Shown here piece by piece: positions 7,197 to 45,578 of a DNA stretch of 64,000 bases. The first letter of the stretch is position 1; each line of letters begins with the position of its first letter. A program made the translations under genes and the position numbers. The DNA lies in the NCBI GenBank assembly GCA_018396775.1, contig JAGTRF010000010.1, positions 1 to 64,000 of the forward strand. Reading direction: 5' to 3'. The notes under the pieces are model-generated. The model was not told the DNA's origin. It saw nothing but the letters and a program-made list of their open reading frames with translations, and searched no databases. The stretch comes from Candidatus Bathyarchaeota archaeon (GTDB taxonomy: Archaea; Thermoproteota; Bathyarchaeia; 40CM-2-53-6; DTDX01).

Positions 7197-7898
7197 TTAA
7201 GGAAATAAAGATAAATCTTTTATTGAAATTATTTTTGCATAAAAGTATTTAGCATCTATAGTATTTTCTGAAAAACTTAACTCCTCTCCTTTAGGTTTAG
7301 AAACAGAGTATTTTATGAATGGAGCTTTAGGGGCTTCATCCATAACTGTATAGAAAAATACTGGAAGCGCGTCAGCTTCATAATAATGCTCGAATGGAAT
7401 GCATGTTCCTATTATATGTTTTTTACGCCTCATAAAATGCCATAAAGGGAATACAGCACCCTCCTTTATTGAAATAGCTAAAAGAACCCTCATTATAGAA
7501 TTAACGTTTTCAACTTCAGAAAGCATTGGTGGTTGAGGTTTTTCGCATTCCCCTTTTATGCTTTTCTCAAAAGCTTCAGGGACATCTTTAAGATCTAAAA
7601 TAAAAGCGTATTTATATTTCGCATCATCAGTATCGGTTGTGAAAAGCCATTCTTCACCTTTAACTGAATCGCTTTTATAAGCTAAGAAAGGCTTAACCGT
7701 TTTATCAGTTTCAACGTAAGCTAAAATAGGTAAATCGCCAATCCAATACATATACGCTGTAAAAAACGCTAAAACAGTTTTCTTTCCTCTTTTAAAATTC
7801 CATACAATTTGATTTCCATCGCTTAAAGCTAAAGTTAACCTAGCAAAATTTAATTCATCCTTTACTTTAATGGGGATCGGGGGTTTTAATTTATTCAA
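7197..7898 (-). CDS. Uncharacterised protein upstream of cobO
   Basis: A 233-residue protein that I do not recognise. No signal peptide or membrane helix is evident. Two halves look alike: each begins with a beta-rich block ending in a KYxYA-type strand (residues about 90-98 and 212-218) and contains a PVFFYTV/LPILAYVE-like strand, so it may be an internal duplication. Conserved-looking residues include HFMRRKKHIIGTCIPFEHYY. It precedes cobO by 16 nt, so the two are probably an operon and it may act in corrinoid handling; that is inference from position only. Confidence 0.65.
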   Translation of the reverse strand: MNKLKPPIPIKVKDELNFARLTLALSDGNQIVWNFKRGKKTVLAFFTAYMYWIGDLPILAYVETDKTVKPFLAYKSDSVKGEEWLFTTDTDDAKYKYAFILDLKDVPEAFEKSIKGECEKPQPPMLSEVENVNSIMRVLLAISIKEGAVFPLWHFMRRKKHIIGTCIPFEHYYEADALPVFFYTVMDEAPKAPFIKYSVSKPKGEELSFSENTIDAKYFYAKIISIKDLSLFP

Positions 7899-30451: not shown

Positions 30452-31069
30452 ATGGTTAAAAAAAGCAAGTTATGGCTTGAAAAAAGGCATAAAGATCAAT
30501 TTCATAAATTAGCTTCTAAGTTAGGTTATAGAAGTAGGGCAGCCTTCAAGCTTTTGCAAATAGCTGAAAAACATCCCTTATTAAAAAAGGGGGATAAAGT
30601 TTTAGATTTAGGAGCGGCGCCTGGAGGTTGGATTCAAGCAGCTGAAAAAATAATTGGAGATAAAGGGTTTATTTATGCAATAGATGTGAAGCCAATTCAA
30701 CCCTTAAACTTAAATAATGTTAAAACTGAAGTTTTAGATTTAACATCTGAGCACGTTGCCTCCAAAATTTTCGATTTAACTAAAGGTAAAGTTGATGTTG
30801 TGCTTTCAGATGCTTCACCTAAATTCTCTGGAGTATTAGAGTTAGATGCTTACCGGCAATATTATTTAGCTAAAAAATCTCTTGAAATAGCTGAGAAAAC
30901 TCTTAAAAAAGGTGGAAACTTTCTTGTTAAAATGCTTCAAAGCAAAGAGTTGAAAGCATTCAAAGAAGAATTAAAAATAAAGTTTGAAAAAGTGAAGTTG
31001 ATTAAGCCTTTAGCAAGCAGAAAAGAAAGCTCAGAAATTTATGTTTTATGCTTAAACTTTACTGGATAA
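30452..31069 (+). CDS. rlmE: RlmE/FtsJ-type RNA 2'-O-ribose methyltransferase
   Basis: A 205-residue FtsJ-family enzyme that methylates the ribose of a uridine in 23S rRNA (or tRNA in some archaea). The K-D-K-E catalytic tetrad is present: SRAAFKL (K), VVLSDASPKFSG (D), FLVKMLQSKE (K) and SSEIYVLC (E). The S-adenosylmethionine loop is DLGAAPGGWIQ. Full length. Its 3' end overlaps the trm1 gene tail to tail by 18 nt. Confidence 0.93.
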   Translation: MVKKSKLWLEKRHKDQFHKLASKLGYRSRAAFKLLQIAEKHPLLKKGDKVLDLGAAPGGWIQAAEKIIGDKGFIYAIDVKPIQPLNLNNVKTEVLDLTSEHVASKIFDLTKGKVDVVLSDASPKFSGVLELDAYRQYYLAKKSLEIAEKTLKKGGNFLVKMLQSKELKAFKEELKIKFEKVKLIKPLASRKESSEIYVLCLNFTG

Positions 31070-32233
31070 GTTTTTCAAAACATTTTTCAACTCGTTTATG
31101 TTAGCGTTTGTTTTTAACCCTGAACCTTTAAAATGTGTTTTAAACGCTGAAAAACCTTTTTCTCTTAATTTTAAAATAATATCTTCAATTTTTACCGAAG
31201 GAATATTCAATTTATCGCATATTTTATCTATCGCATAATATGTTGGTGAAGCTTCAGTTTCGTCAATTAATTTAACTAGAAGCTCTTCTTCTCTTCGCTT
31301 TAATTTAAAATTTTTCTCGCTAAGCTTAACAAGCATTTTTTCGCAAAAGCTTTTATCAATTATTTCTTTAACCCACAATGGTCCTGCGTAACTTAATTTT
31401 CCCATGCATAAATCGCATTTAACCGGGAGATTAAAGAAGCTTTGAATTAAAATTCTATTCATGCAGTTAAAGCAATGAGCTATTACGCCAAGTTTTTTTA
31501 TAGATTCACTAGCTAAAGACGCTCCATAACCACATAAAGCATAAACCCTTACATAATGGTTAGCAGCATAACTGAAAACTGGTTTAATGATAATATCATG
31601 TTTAGCAGCTGTAAAAACTAAGCAACCGATTAAAAGTCTAACAGCTATTTCATGGCAGTATTCAGTTCTTAAAGGGAAGCCGCCGTATTTTCTAAATGCA
31701 GCGTAAGGGTGAACGCCGCATAAAGGAGCCATATCTGTTGCTGTTAAAGCGATTAAACCATTATTTCTTAAGGCTCTTAAAGCTGAATCTAAAAAAGGTG
31801 CGGGTGAACCAAAAGGGTCTAAATCTATAAAATTAAATCTACTTCTTGGTTTTGCATGCAAAGATAAAAGCATATTCGCATCCATATTAAAAGCTTCGCA
31901 AACATCTTCAACCTTATTCTCTTTTATATTTTTAACTATGATTTTATAAGCTGAAGGGTTAACATCGTTTAATACAATTTTCTTTTTTATATTTTTAATT
32001 TCAACAGCTAATCTTATTCCTTTAATTCCTGAAGCAGCCATAGCATCGCAAGCCAAAAACTCTTTGCAATTAATTAAATCAATATAGGATTGAGCTGCGA
32101 CAACAGTTAAATCTCTATTCAACTCCATTATCGGATTATAGAATACTAAGGGTTTATTGGTTAAGCTTGGTTTCGGAATTAAAATTTTAACTTTACCTTC
32201 CGTAACCTGTTTTAAACTAAGCGTTTTACTCAA
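31052..32233 (-). CDS. trm1: tRNA (guanine-26) N2,N2-dimethyltransferase
   Basis: A 393-residue Trm1. It uses S-adenosylmethionine to make N2,N2-dimethylguanosine at tRNA position 26. Signatures: VFYNPIMELNRDLTVVA, DAMAASGIKGIRLA, FNFIDLDPFGSPAPFLDSA and TATDMAPLCGVHP, then the C-terminal zinc ligands HCFNCM and CDLC. Normal archaeal length. ATG start. Divergent from the THEP1 NTPase gene. Confidence 0.94.
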   Translation of the reverse strand: MSKTLSLKQVTEGKVKILIPKPSLTNKPLVFYNPIMELNRDLTVVAAQSYIDLINCKEFLACDAMAASGIKGIRLAVEIKNIKKKIVLNDVNPSAYKIIVKNIKENKVEDVCEAFNMDANMLLSLHAKPRSRFNFIDLDPFGSPAPFLDSALRALRNNGLIALTATDMAPLCGVHPYAAFRKYGGFPLRTEYCHEIAVRLLIGCLVFTAAKHDIIIKPVFSYAANHYVRVYALCGYGASLASESIKKLGVIAHCFNCMNRILIQSFFNLPVKCDLCMGKLSYAGPLWVKEIIDKSFCEKMLVKLSEKNFKLKRREEELLVKLIDETEASPTYYAIDKICDKLNIPSVKIEDIILKLREKGFSAFKTHFKGSGLKTNANINELKNVLKNLSSKV

Positions 32234-32297
32234 ATTTTCTCCTCCAAAACATTAATTTCAATTAAAGCTTATTAAATATAAAAAAGGGGAGAGGGAT

Positions 32298-32840
32298 TTG
32301 AGTAAGAAAATATTTTTAACAGGAAAACCAGGTGTTGGTAAAACAAGTATTATGATTTATTTAATAGAGGAATTGAAGCGGATGGGGTTTAAGGTTGGAG
32401 GATTTGTTAGCAGCGAGGTTAGAGTTAAAGGAGAACGGGTTGGTTTTAAAATTAAAGATTTATCTTCAAGCAAGGAGGGGTGGCTTGCTCATGTAAACCA
32501 AGCTTTTGGACCAAAACTTGGAAAATATAAAGTTAACTTGAAAGATTTAATTGAGGTGGGAGTTAATTCGATTAATGAAGCTGAAGTTAACCAAGATATA
32601 GATTTAATAGCGATAGATGAGTTGGGACCAATGGAGTTTTTTAGTTTTGAATTTAAGAAAGCTGTTGAAAAAGTTGTTGAAAGCGAAAAACCTTTAATTG
32701 CAACAATTCATTATAAGCTTAAGAATGAGTTTCTAAAGAAAGTTAAAAACTGTAAAGTTTTTGAAGTAACCTTAGAAAATAGAGAAAGATTACCTAAAGA
32801 AGTTTTAAAGGAAGTTTTAACAGTTTTAAAGAATCCTTAA
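32298..32840 (+). CDS. THEP1-family nucleoside-triphosphatase
   Basis: A 180-residue small P-loop NTPase of the THEP1/NTPCR family. Walker A is GKPGVGKTS (residues 8-16) and Walker B is LIAIDELGPMEFFS. The family hydrolyses ATP and other NTPs in vitro; the cellular role is unknown. The start is TTG with GGGGAGAGG about 8 nt upstream. The gene precedes RNase HII by 5 nt and probably shares its transcript. Confidence 0.92.
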   Translation: MSKKIFLTGKPGVGKTSIMIYLIEELKRMGFKVGGFVSSEVRVKGERVGFKIKDLSSSKEGWLAHVNQAFGPKLGKYKVNLKDLIEVGVNSINEAEVNQDIDLIAIDELGPMEFFSFEFKKAVEKVVESEKPLIATIHYKLKNEFLKKVKNCKVFEVTLENRERLPKEVLKEVLTVLKNP

Positions 32841-32845
32841 ATTTT

Positions 32846-34141
32846 ATGGTGAGAAAATTGATTATTGCTGGTTTAGATGATGCTGGAAGAGGCCCAGTTA
32901 TAGGGCCATTAGTGATCGCGGGTGTAGCGGTTAAAAAGGAGGAAGTTTCAAAACTTGTTTTAATAAACGTTAAAGACTCAAAAACGCTTTCTCCAGAAGC
33001 CAGAGAGAAATTAAGCATTGTTATAAAGCAAATCGCTGATAAATACAGCCTTATCGAGTTTTCACCAAAAGAAATAGATGAAGTTGTTTTTAAAGCTAAA
33101 AAACTTGAGAAATTGAATTTTTTAGAAGCTAAAGGGATGGCTCAAGTTATTACTAAATTAAAGCCTGATTTAGCTTATGTTGACGCTTCAGATGTGAATC
33201 CAGATAGATTTGCTAAACAAATTTTAAAGATTTTACCGTTTCAAGTAAAAATTGTTTCAGAGCATTACGCTGATAGAAAGTATCCTATAGTCTCAGCTGC
33301 AAGCATTTTAGCTAAAGTTCATAGAGATAATCGTATAAAAGAGTTAAAGGAAAAATATGGAGACTTCGGTTCTCTACCTTACTCTGAAGAAATTTTAATA
33401 GGTAAAGAGAATGGGGAAGTCGATTTAATAAGCATTGGAGAACTTGTTGAAAATAAGCTTAAAATAAATAACGATGAAAAAATTTACGCTTTCTCAATTA
33501 ACCATAAAGACTTGAAAATTAAATTGTTTCAAATAACAGATTTCATTAAGCATCCTCCACAAAAAATATTTAAGCTAACTTTAAGCGATAATCGAGAAGT
33601 TAAAGTTTCACCTAACCATAGCTTTTTTAAGCTGAATGGGTTTAAGCTTAAAAAAGCTAAAGCCTTAGATTTAAAACCTGGAGATTACATAGCTGCAGCT
33701 TCTAAAATAAGCTTAGCGGATATAACTAAAAAATATGAAGCAACATTTGGTAAAAAATTGCTTGAAAACCAAAAGTGGGTTAACTTATTTTATAATAAAA
33801 ACAAAAAACAAAAACGATTTTTAATTCAATGGCGTAAAAGCGTAAATTATTTATTTAGAACGGATATTCAATTAGTTAAGGTTTTTAAAATTGAGGATAC
33901 TAAACGTTTTGAACCAGTTTATGATGTTGAAGTTAAGCCTAAAGGAAGGTTTATAGAGAATTTTTTAGGAGGCTTAAGCGGGGTAATTCTTCACAACTCA
34001 GGTTACCCATCAGATTCTAAAACAATAAATTTCCTTAAAAAATGGTATAAGGAATATGGAGATTTCCCATCTATAACTAGAAAATCTTGGAAAACAATTA
34101 AAAAAATTGAAGAAGAATTCTCTCAAAAAAAGCTTATATAG
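32846..34141 (+). CDS. rnhB: Ribonuclease HII precursor containing an intein
   Basis: A 431-residue precursor. Residues 1-175 and 385-431 together make a 222-residue RNase HII, the normal archaeal size; the 209 residues between are an intein. Host blocks are GLDDAGRGPVIGPLV (D11, D12), YVDASDVNPDRF, HYADRKYPIVSAASILAKVH and, after splicing, YGDFG joined to SGYPSD. The usual DEAGRG appears as DDAGRG, a conservative change at a metal ligand. RNase HII cuts RNA at RNA-DNA junctions during replication and repair. The insertion interrupts a conserved motif, so splicing is probably needed for full activity. Confidence 0.93.
   Translation: MVRKLIIAGLDDAGRGPVIGPLVIAGVAVKKEEVSKLVLINVKDSKTLSPEAREKLSIVIKQIADKYSLIEFSPKEIDEVVFKAKKLEKLNFLEAKGMAQVITKLKPDLAYVDASDVNPDRFAKQILKILPFQVKIVSEHYADRKYPIVSAASILAKVHRDNRIKELKEKYGDFGSLPYSEEILIGKENGEVDLISIGELVENKLKINNDEKIYAFSINHKDLKIKLFQITDFIKHPPQKIFKLTLSDNREVKVSPNHSFFKLNGFKLKKAKALDLKPGDYIAAASKISLADITKKYEATFGKKLLENQKWVNLFYNKNKKQKRFLIQWRKSVNYLFRTDIQLVKVFKIEDTKRFEPVYDVEVKPKGRFIENFLGGLSGVILHNSGYPSDSKTINFLKKWYKEYGDFPSITRKSWKTIKKIEEEFSQKKLI
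33371..33997 (+). mobile_element. Mini-intein inserted in RNase HII
   Basis: The intein covers precursor residues S176 to N384. It begins with Ser (SLPYSEEILIG, block A), has a block B with the expected histidine (REVKVSPNHSFF), block F (PVYDVEVKPKGRFIENFL) and ends with block G (VILHN), followed by Ser as first C-extein residue. All splicing residues are thus present. At 209 residues with no LAGLIDADG motif it lacks a homing endonuclease, so it is a mini-intein that can splice but not spread by itself. Removing it rebuilds GDFGSGYPSD exactly. Confidence 0.93.
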
Positions 34142-34829
34142 CTTTAGCAACAATAAATGCATGATCTTTCTCATATGGTTCAAGCCTTATTGATTGAATA
34201 ATTTTAAATCCTTTAACCTTTAAGGATTCTATTTCTTTTTTAAAGATTTCTGAAGGGTCTTTAGTTACATTAATGCTTCTAGCTTTTAAAGCTATCATAA
34301 TGAAGCCATCCTTTTTTAAATAATATTCAGCATTATCTAAAAGAATTTTAGTTTGATCTGGTTGAGCAACATCACAATAAATAACATCAACTTTCGGTAT
34401 TGAAATAGGATATTTATTTGGAAATCTAGCATCAGCAAATATAGGAATCAAATTTCTTCGATAAACACAAACATTATTAACTAATTCTCTCATAGCTCTT
34501 GCAGCAAATTCAACACAATAAGCTTTACCACCCTTATCTATAATATCGCTTACATGACTTACAGTTGTTCCTGAGCCTGCGCCTAAATAAAGCAGTGTTA
34601 CGCTAGGTTTAATAGGCATAATAGATAAGCCTTTTAAAATTGCTGCAGCAAGCTTGCTTCTATAAGGATCCCAAACCCTATATTCTACACCTTTAACTTT
34701 AATTAATTTTTCTCCATAAACAGATTTCTCTAAAGCTAAATTTTTTGTAGCTAAATTTTCTTTTCCCCCTTCAAAAATTAAAATGTAAACTCCTGGAAAT
34801 TTAACTTGAATTTTAACTTCGTTTAACAT
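34134..34829 (-). CDS. flpA: Fibrillarin-like rRNA/tRNA 2'-O-methyltransferase
   Basis: A 231-residue archaeal fibrillarin, the catalytic subunit of box C/D RNA-guided ribose methylation. The S-adenosylmethionine site is LYLGAGSGTTVSHVSDI, with VEFAARAMREL, DVIYCDVAQPDQ and FIMIALKARSI following in the usual order. It starts inside the end of the nop5 gene (17-nt overlap), the classic archaeal nop5-flpA arrangement, and converges with the RNase HII gene with an 8-nt overlap. Confidence 0.96.
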   Translation of the reverse strand: MLNEVKIQVKFPGVYILIFEGGKENLATKNLALEKSVYGEKLIKVKGVEYRVWDPYRSKLAAAILKGLSIMPIKPSVTLLYLGAGSGTTVSHVSDIIDKGGKAYCVEFAARAMRELVNNVCVYRRNLIPIFADARFPNKYPISIPKVDVIYCDVAQPDQTKILLDNAEYYLKKDGFIMIALKARSINVTKDPSEIFKKEIESLKVKGFKIIQSIRLEPYEKDHAFIVAKAI

Positions 34830-35976
34830 GAGGCTTCCTCATAGGTTTCTTATATTTCTCTTTAATTTCTTTAATTCTTTCCTCAAGCTCATTCTTTAAT
34901 TCTTCAATTTTAACTTCCCCTTCAAAAGCGTCTAATCTAGCTGCTATAGCTATTTTTCCAGCTAAAGCTCTAGCTATTTTCCCTCTTTGCCATCTTGGAG
35001 ATTGATGAAGAAGTATATGCTGAAATATAATGCCATGTTTTGGAGGTTTAGAGCCTGTTTTTAAAGCTCTAAAAAGAGCTTTTTCAGCTCCTAAAACTTG
35101 AATTGTACTCGCAGGCATTTTAGCTAAATTCTCTAATCCTCCAGCTAAAGAAATTAACTTAGCTGAAAGCGTTGAGCCAATTAAACCTGTTAAATTTGGA
35201 GCAACTTCATTCATAAGGCGAGATAAATAATGTTCCATTTGTTTTCTTAAATTAAATAAACTTAATACATGAGAGCAAAAGTTTTTTAAAACATCAATAT
35301 CTTCAATTTCAGCTCCAATAGAGTTTGCAGCTGCTTGAGAAATTTGCTCAGCTTTATCAATTGATAAACCAGCTTTTAAAAGATTATTTAAGGTAAAATT
35401 AGGTTTACCTCCAAAATCTATTATAAGCTTAATGTAAACTTCATGAGATTCAATTAAATTATTTAATTCAGGAAAAATTAACCCATGCCATTCTCTTATT
35501 CTTCCAGAGAATAAGTTTAAAGTTTTATCAATATCCTCTAAAGCTCTTGAAATTTGAATAGCATAAAGATCTTTTTTAGCTGAAGCTGCTTTAAGCTTTT
35601 CTCTTGCTATTTGCACAGCTACTTCTCTAATAAAATTTTCAGCTTCATCCTTGCTTTTTAAAATTTTCAGCTTTAAAATTTCAGATGTTAAATTTCGCTT
35701 AAACTCCTCAGCCACCACGCATGGTTTTTGAATTTCAACTTTAAATTCAGGCTTTAAAGCTTTAGCTAAAGCTTCATTATCTAAAATAAGCTTTTCAAAT
35801 TTTTCATTTAAAAACTTAAAAAATAAAGCAATCGATTCAGGAAGTTTCCCTTCATTGATTTCAATTAAAGATTTGCTTGCTTCTAAAGGAGATTTAAATA
35901 AAAATTTATCTAAAATCTCGCCTTTCTCGTTTAATGCGAAAAACCCAATTGAGCAATCCACAATATAAACATTCAT
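34813..35976 (-). CDS. nop5: Nop5/Nop56-58 box C/D RNP scaffold protein
   Basis: A 387-residue scaffold that joins fibrillarin and L7Ae on C/D guide RNAs. The N-terminal fibrillarin-binding domain (about residues 1-115), the coiled coil (about 125-240) and the Nop domain are seen; the last holds the family signature GSTLSAKLISLAGGLENLAK, IQVLGAEKALFRAL and KHGIIFQHILLHQSPRWQRG. The C-terminus is lysine-rich. Coupled to flpA by overlap. ATG start. Confidence 0.96.
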   Translation of the reverse strand: MNVYIVDCSIGFFALNEKGEILDKFLFKSPLEASKSLIEINEGKLPESIALFFKFLNEKFEKLILDNEALAKALKPEFKVEIQKPCVVAEEFKRNLTSEILKLKILKSKDEAENFIREVAVQIAREKLKAASAKKDLYAIQISRALEDIDKTLNLFSGRIREWHGLIFPELNNLIESHEVYIKLIIDFGGKPNFTLNNLLKAGLSIDKAEQISQAAANSIGAEIEDIDVLKNFCSHVLSLFNLRKQMEHYLSRLMNEVAPNLTGLIGSTLSAKLISLAGGLENLAKMPASTIQVLGAEKALFRALKTGSKPPKHGIIFQHILLHQSPRWQRGKIARALAGKIAIAARLDAFEGEVKIEELKNELEERIKEIKEKYKKPMRKPHVKRS

Positions 35977-39023: not shown

Positions 39024-39051
39024 TAAGGCTTTTTATGCTTTAAAATATTAA

Positions 39052-39138
39052 GCCGGGGTGGCCGAATGGTTCAGGCGGCGGGCTGCAGAACTAGCTTTAG
39101 AAACCCGCAGAATGTGGGTTCAATTCCCACCCCCGGCT
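39052..39138 (+). tRNA. tRNA-Cys (GCA) with a 14-nt intron
   Basis: A full cloverleaf. Acceptor strands are GCCGGGG and CCCCGGC; D stem GCC/GGC; anticodon stem GCGGG (39078-39082) and CCCGC (39104-39108); T arm GTGGG-TTCAATT-CCCAC. The discriminator base is T, as needed by cysteinyl-tRNA synthetase. The anticodon GCA is at 39085-39087. The loop carries 14 extra bases, read as an intron between positions 37 and 38. Mature length is 73 nt before CCA, which is not encoded. Confidence 0.93.
39089..39102 (+). other. Intron in tRNA-Cys (canonical 37/38 site)
   Basis: Fourteen bases, AACTAGCTTTAGAA, lie between G37 and A38 of the anticodon loop. The central CTA-GCTT-TAG can pair, leaving short A-rich bulges beside the anticodon stem, which suits a relaxed bulge-helix-bulge for the archaeal splicing endonuclease. 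Removing it restores the seven-base loop CTGCAGA. The exact cut could shift by one base because A residues flank both ends. Confidence 0.85.
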
Positions 39139-39181
39139 TTAAAACAAAGCTTTATAAAACCTTTAAAGAGGAAAATAAAAA

Positions 39182-45385: not shown

Positions 45386-45516
45386 CAAAAATATTTAAAT
45401 AAATCAAAATTAAGCCTTTTTCCAAAAAATGATAAGGAAGATGGAGGGTTATTCTGCAAAAAGGGTGAGTATGGCGCCGCCGGGAGGACTCGAACCCCCG
45501 ACCAACGGGTTAACAG

Positions 45517-45534
45517 CTTCAGCCCCTATGAGGG
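45517..45534 (-). other. 18-nt intron 5' of the tRNA-Asn anticodon (31/32 site)
   Basis: On the minus strand CCCTCATAGGGGCTGAAG separates the anticodon-stem strand GCGGA from the loop CTGTTAA. It begins with a hairpin, CCCT-CAT-AGGG. The position, before the anticodon, is one of the non-canonical intron sites known in Thermoproteota-type archaea. Because both junctions carry C, the cut may be one base later (32/33). Confidence 0.75.
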
Positions 45535-45556
45535 TCCGCTGCTCTACCACTGAGCT

Positions 45557-45578
45557 TTCGTCTACTCTAGTTGAGTAA
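45557..45578 (-). other. 22-nt intron between tRNA-Asn positions 8 and 9
   Basis: On the minus strand the acceptor stem and T8 are followed by 22 extra bases before A9 and the D stem. They contain a perfect hairpin, TACTC-AACTA-GAGTA, as expected for the central helix of a bulge-helix-bulge splice motif. Without it the sequence reads GCCGCCGTAGCTC, the standard archaeal tRNA-Asn start. The boundaries may shift slightly because T and A are repeated at the junctions. Confidence 0.75.

Follow-up and report, generated by a model that had tools for sequence, protein, structure and literature searches.

The RNase HII gene and its insertion

Within the window, by which we mean the whole 64,000-nucleotide stretch of Candidatus Bathyarchaeota DNA analysed here, an uninterrupted reading frame at 32846..34141 (+) encodes an RNase HII precursor of 431 aa with a computed mass of 49.5 kDa. 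The RNase HII profile TIGR00729 matches at E=1.5e-57 and PF01351 also matches, but profile and alignment coverage falls on residues 7–176 and 384–430, the gap being the intein; the alignment to the solved RNase HII 1uax likewise splits at residue 176/384 and restarts at SGYPSD. The host protein carries the DED(D) carboxylates, GRG motif and substrate-reading tyrosine of an RNase HII, and its closest named relatives come from Candidatus Bathyarchaeota assemblies. The features of the gene are as follows.

32846..33370 (+), N-extein, RNase HII residues 1–175, with active-site D11/D12 and the GRG motif (PF01351/TIGR00729; alignment to solved RNase HII)
33371..33997 (+), mini-intein of 209 aa, residues 176–384, Ser1...His-Asn, without homing endonuclease (PF14890, TIGR01445; AlphaFold m03f0a37dc1bf and Foldseek)
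33371..33409 (+), block A (N1) SLPYSEEILIGKE, nucleophile Ser176 (alignments A6 and A7; Ser1 in 6/6 RNase HII inteins)
33551..33553 (+), motif NX histidine His236, in Lys-His (A6; motif described in PMC10189870; aligned to the TFIIB and PI-PkoII inteins)
33608..33619 (+), block B (N3) S-P-N-H, with Ser255 in place of Thr and His258 retained (alignments)
33710..33862 (+), 51-residue linker of lowest conservation (about 50% identity), the position of LAGLIDADG and HTH in DPANN homologues (alignments)
33911..33997 (+), blocks F and G (C2, C1) EPVYDVEV...ENFLGGLSGVILHN, with Asp360, His383 and Asn384 (alignments; residues 341–384 82% identical to the congener)
33998..34138 (+), C-extein, RNase HII residues 385–431, with Ser+1 and Tyr387 (alignment to solved RNase HII; Tyr role from PMC3025331)

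An earlier sequence-only reading had proposed a 209-residue intein at residues 176–384, beginning with Ser, ending in His-Asn and followed by Ser at +1, and our profile searches and the split alignment to 1uax bear this out, with Ser176, His383-Asn384 and Ser385 at the expected places. PF14890 (Intein_splicing) matches the insert at E=9.6e-22, with 77.9 bits vs a cutoff of 35.8, and TIGR01445 (intein_Nterm) at E=4e-11, above its cutoff; TIGR01443 (intein_Cterm) reaches 12 bits, under its cutoff of 15.6. In the AlphaFold model of the intein, built from a 16-row alignment (pLDDT 80, pTM 0.77), the best Foldseek matches are solved inteins, led by the Mvu TFIIB mini-intein at E=5.5e-11. A model of the entire precursor from 12 sequences gave the RNase H fold with confidence, and its intein part, with a pLDDT of about 40, is uninformative as to geometry. 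Joining residues 1–175 to 385–431 restores YGDFGSGYPSD, as that reading had foreseen, and yields a product of 222 aa and 25.2 kDa (computed), for which YGDFGSGYPSDSK is the tryptic peptide expected across the spliced junction; removal of the insert leaves an RNase HII that aligns continuously with intein-free relatives.

No LAGLIDADG domain was found in the precursor (Pfam, E<=1), in agreement with the proposed lack of a homing endonuclease, though such domains were found in three further inteins that this genome encodes. The insert is a class 1 intein of the Ser1/Ser+1 type and is endonuclease-free: it combines a Hint profile match, Ser1, His-Asn, Ser+1 and an in-frame removal that restores the host, and is not an endonuclease-bearing (maxi-)intein. 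The TxxH motif of block B keeps its His and has Ser for Thr, as it does in the congener and in the RNase HII intein at L089.

The location in a functional motif was also read correctly, since the insertion point lies two residues ahead of Tyr387. The equivalent residue of Thermotoga maritima RNase HII, Y163, touches the ribonucleotide 2'-OH and distorts the backbone, and the Y163F substitution seriously reduces activity (PMC3025331). Because the intein splits the loop just before this 2'-OH-reading tyrosine, the unspliced precursor is probably inactive. Conservation at the insertion site ranks second among 222 windows along the protein, a rank that is biased, since the sequences were chosen by a motif at that place.

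The window genome (1.33 Mb, 98.5% complete) contains one RNase HII, and a profile search of it for RNase HI (PF00075) found none, so that RNase HII is, provisionally, the sole RNase H detected there.

Several minor features of the gene and its surroundings deserve mention. The second catalytic carboxylate of the DED(D/E) motif has been given as an absolutely conserved Glu (PMC3025331); in the window gene it is Asp (32876–32881, D11-D12), and Asp stands there in 45 of the 55 motif matches among the loci examined, mostly from Bathyarchaeia (GxDDAGRG). The neighbours at 30452–35976 are a THEP1-type NTPase, Trm1, an FtsJ-type methyltransferase, fibrillarin and Nop5, and the order Nop5-fibrillarin-RNase HII-NTPase is also kept in the congener genome G001.

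Cysteine-free chemistry and motif NX

The entire precursor contains no cysteine, and the window intein is therefore of the Ser1/Ser+1 type. A histidine that follows Lys or Arg, termed motif NX, has been reported as specific to Ser1/Ser+1 inteins and was critical in three tested inteins (PMC10189870). Alignment A6 places Lys235-His236 of the window intein at this motif, and the congener also has Lys-His. Among the other inteins of A6, the Ser1 relatives L078, L085 and L088 have Lys-His or Arg-His at the same place, and the histidine is absent from L081, L083, L003 and L079, all of which either begin with Cys or have no Ser at the N-terminus; Arg-His also occupies the aligned position in the TFIIB and PI-PkoII inteins, two Ser1 inteins of known structure. 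The co-variation of the NX histidine with Ser1 thus constitutes an independent prediction that the window intein passes, as judged from the alignments. In 6/6 RNase HII inteins, Ser1, the block-B His, the block-F Asp, His-Asn and Ser+1 are all retained. Of the two findings that the sequence-only reading had named as grounds for rejecting it, variable terminal residues in relatives and the lack of a Hint-domain match, neither was seen.

Known inteins place these features in context. The Mvu and Mja TFIIB inteins (PDB 5o9i, 5o9j) are the nearest solved structures (sequence E=1e-11, fold E=6e-11) and their NX-type His aligns, but they interrupt another host protein, and in the fold alignment about 22% of residues are identical. 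PolB16 OarG and other inteins without cysteine resemble the window intein in Ser1, Ser+1 and a Lys/Arg-His NX motif; the PolB16 intein, however, is split and its N3 His is dispensable (PMC10189870), whereas in the window intein, a single uninterrupted chain, that residue is retained. Archaeal MCM (CDC21), PolD, RadA, KaiC-like, IF2 and RNR inteins (L003, L078–L088, L004, L005) are, like the window intein, class 1 Hint domains, some with Ser1, but they occupy different hosts and sites, lie outside the RNase HII tree group and, where scanned, keep LAGLIDADG.

Distribution and descent

Collection scans queried with the intein gave no named relatives, and tblastn gave no match in phages or plasmids. 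Among 60 relatives searched by protein, the separately assembled congener G001 (locus L007) alone carries an equivalent insert, and a DNA search for the junction pattern HN-[S/C/T]-GYP-[S/T]-D, for which the reversed pattern gave zero matches as a control, found it in the window genome and G001 only when 257 genomes from the class and 398 from the phylum were scanned. An Asgard match (G746) proved a false positive, HNRGYPTD in a short unrelated frame.

The window and G001 inteins are 67% identical, compared with 81% for the N-extein, and DNA identity along the gene does not rise within the intein. The intein pN/pS is 0.35 (95% interval 0.26–0.47) vs 0.29 for the exteins; within the intein, identity amounts to 50% across the linker region and to 82% across the C-terminal splice region. 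Because the intein is no more similar to that of the congener than the exteins are, it has been inherited vertically in the genus rather than recently transferred, and the pattern of substitution indicates selection for splicing.

Three further inteins were identified in the window genome, all with LAGLIDADG_3 (Pfam), so that among those found the RNase HII intein alone is endonuclease-free.

C6:10305-11921, MCM intein (L003)
C6:24501-25319, class II RNR (NrdJ) intein (L004)
C9:67121-68308, anaerobic RNR (NrdD) intein (L005)

As a separate observation, DNA polymerase-like genes in Bathyarchaeia G008 and G032 (L080, L082) each contain two or more inteins, and G003 and G030 lack the first of these.

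Junction pattern searches also found RNase HII inteins at the identical residue in DPANN archaea: in 3/156 Aenigmatarchaeota genomes, the phylum assignment being read from the presence of G582 (the genome of L070), and in 1/279 genomes of the phylum of ARS1178, a group of small genomes that is probably Nanoarchaeota. We found no published name for these inteins (L093–L096). They share with the window intein the site G|SGYPSD, Ser1, the NX His, His-Asn and Ser+1, together with 42–48% identity in the splice regions, but are 475–487 aa long and contain LAGLIDADG_3 and HTH_3, the endonuclease aligning to the 51-residue linker of the 209-aa window intein. The five RNase HII inteins placed in a 14-intein tree form a cluster (81/86), the Bathyarchaeia pair beside three DPANN inteins, apart from the nine inteins of other hosts; support for this grouping is moderate.

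The history of the Aenigmatarchaeota copies differs from the vertical descent in Bathyarchaeia. The splice domains of L094 and L095 are 99.4% identical at the amino acid level vs 77% for the exteins, and beyond the nearest flanks of the intein their DNA identity drops to 63–72%. Between G1207 and G1212, DNA identity is 98–100% in each 60-nt step of the intein, 95–98% for about 180–200 nt upstream and 87–95% for about 100 nt downstream, 63–75% in the rest of the gene and about 40% in neighbours. Near-identical inteins flanked on both sides by a co-conversion tract are the trace expected from recent homing in Aenigmatarchaeota. Phages gave only distant, endonuclease-type matches to a DPANN intein.

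Between Bathyarchaeia and DPANN, the inteins are 42–48% identical and the exteins 41–46%, and since the two have diverged to a similar degree, any transfer, in either direction, would be old. Ca. Bathyarchaeota have been listed among the top gene donors to Ca. Aenigmarchaeota (PMC8407114), a finding that renders exchange between these groups plausible.

Two further observations concern the DPANN genome G803. Its RNase HII gene (L093, about 7750–7810, -) has 30 nt with an in-frame TAA between GADEAGR and GPVIGP, at the GRG motif, which could reflect disruption of the gene, misassembly or a very short intron. Immediately downstream, the SMC gene (L093:603-5666, -) has an intein with LAGLIDADG domains too.

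Probable splicing, endonuclease loss and retention

Our data are best explained by a model, which we regard as very probable from the sequence comparisons, where the insert is a cis-splicing, cysteine-free class 1 mini-intein, formerly a homing element, that lost its endonuclease and has been kept vertically in the genus. Ser176 would attack the Gly175 carbonyl in an N-O acyl shift aided by His258 and His236, the N-extein would pass to Ser385, and Asn384 would cyclise with the help of His383. Ligation of the exteins across the Gly175–Ser385 junction would then produce the 222-residue RNase HII, restoring the genome's sole detected RNase H, and free a 24.3 kDa intein.

The wider family would home into the RNase HII site by means of a LAGLIDADG-HTH endonuclease, retained in Aenigmatarchaeota and another DPANN phylum and presumably lost in the Bathyarchaeia genus before its two known species split. 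We favour loss over an element that never had an endonuclease because the same-site homologues carry one; the linker itself offers no significant remnant, its best local match being W-x-x-LF-x-N (P about 0.1–0.2). Inteins target conserved sites and persist there because exact removal is rare, and no regulatory reason is required (PMC2814812). As the site is conserved and the gene probably indispensable, we infer that retention of splicing competence needs no regulatory benefit, exact deletion from such a motif being rare.

The sequence-only reading had described the intein as fixed. This holds for the genus, in which both members carry the intein under vertical inheritance and purifying selection, but not for the allele, whose same-site copies in DPANN bear endonucleases and show a clear signature of recent homing. 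The RNase HII site is therefore a recurrent target of a mobile intein allele, of which the window copy is an endonuclease-less, genus-fixed form.

The same reading had suggested that splicing could act as a switch, and for this our analysis provides no support. It is unlikely that the intein has been domesticated, with conditional splicing at the 2'-OH-reading loop gating the cell's sole RNase H in response to an environmental or partner signal; ribonucleotide removal and primer processing would in that case be turned on post-translationally. That conditional splicing, responding to heat, pH, metal, DNA or a partner, times RNase HII activity and explains why the intein was kept is a proposal to which we give little credence. 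The intein does sit in a key functional loop, it persists under purifying selection without an endonuclease, and conditional splicing is reported for some inteins, for example mycobacterial DnaB (PMC6195587). However, the cysteine-free precursor excludes thiol (redox) control, the preference of inteins for conserved sites has causes other than regulation (PMC2814812), purifying selection is expected of any intein obliged to splice, and the arrangement is restricted to one genus.

Loss of splicing, with an RNase HII that tolerates an inserted domain, would fit the replacement of the block-B Thr by Ser and the weak C-terminal profile score, and we consider it very unlikely. Both species keep every catalytic residue, dN/dS lies well under 1, the splice regions are better conserved than the linker, the block-B Ser recurs in another RNase HII intein (L089), and an insertion only two residues ahead of Tyr387 would disturb substrate binding. 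It is scarcely credible that the insert is a bacterial-intein-like (BIL) or Hedgehog-type cleavage domain: the Hint fold is common to both and BIL structures are also among the Foldseek matches, but the insert lies in a housekeeping enzyme, at its conserved G-x-GYP motif, and not in a variable region as a BIL does, it keeps Asn and Ser+1, exact removal restores the host, and archaeal splicing inteins give the closest structural matches. An assembly or binning artefact, conceivable for two draft and probably metagenomic assemblies, is equally hard to credit, with an open ORF throughout and the insert recurring in two genomes, between which the protein is 73% identical and gene order is conserved.

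A spliced mini-intein descended from a homing element thus remains our preferred reading. The sequence-only reading had remarked that RNase HII was an unfamiliar intein host, and we too found no earlier report or description of it as one among openly licensed PMC papers. As a kind, the element is a standard class 1 intein, and host protein and allele are undescribed as far as that literature goes; our results add RNase HII to the intein host proteins. At one site, both phases of the homing cycle can be seen, in DPANN copies that moved recently with their endonuclease and in an inherited Bathyarchaeia copy without it, so that how an endonuclease is lost, how an intein persists and how it passes between DPANN and other archaea become testable questions at a single gene. 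A naturally cysteine-free mini-intein is also a possible tool for protein ligation.

Elsewhere in the window, odd tRNA predictions occur at 39051–39139 and 45472–45565. One has an unreadable anticodon and is confirmed as a tRNA by Rfam; the other is a 94-base tRNA-Met prediction that Rfam did not confirm, and either may be intron-bearing.
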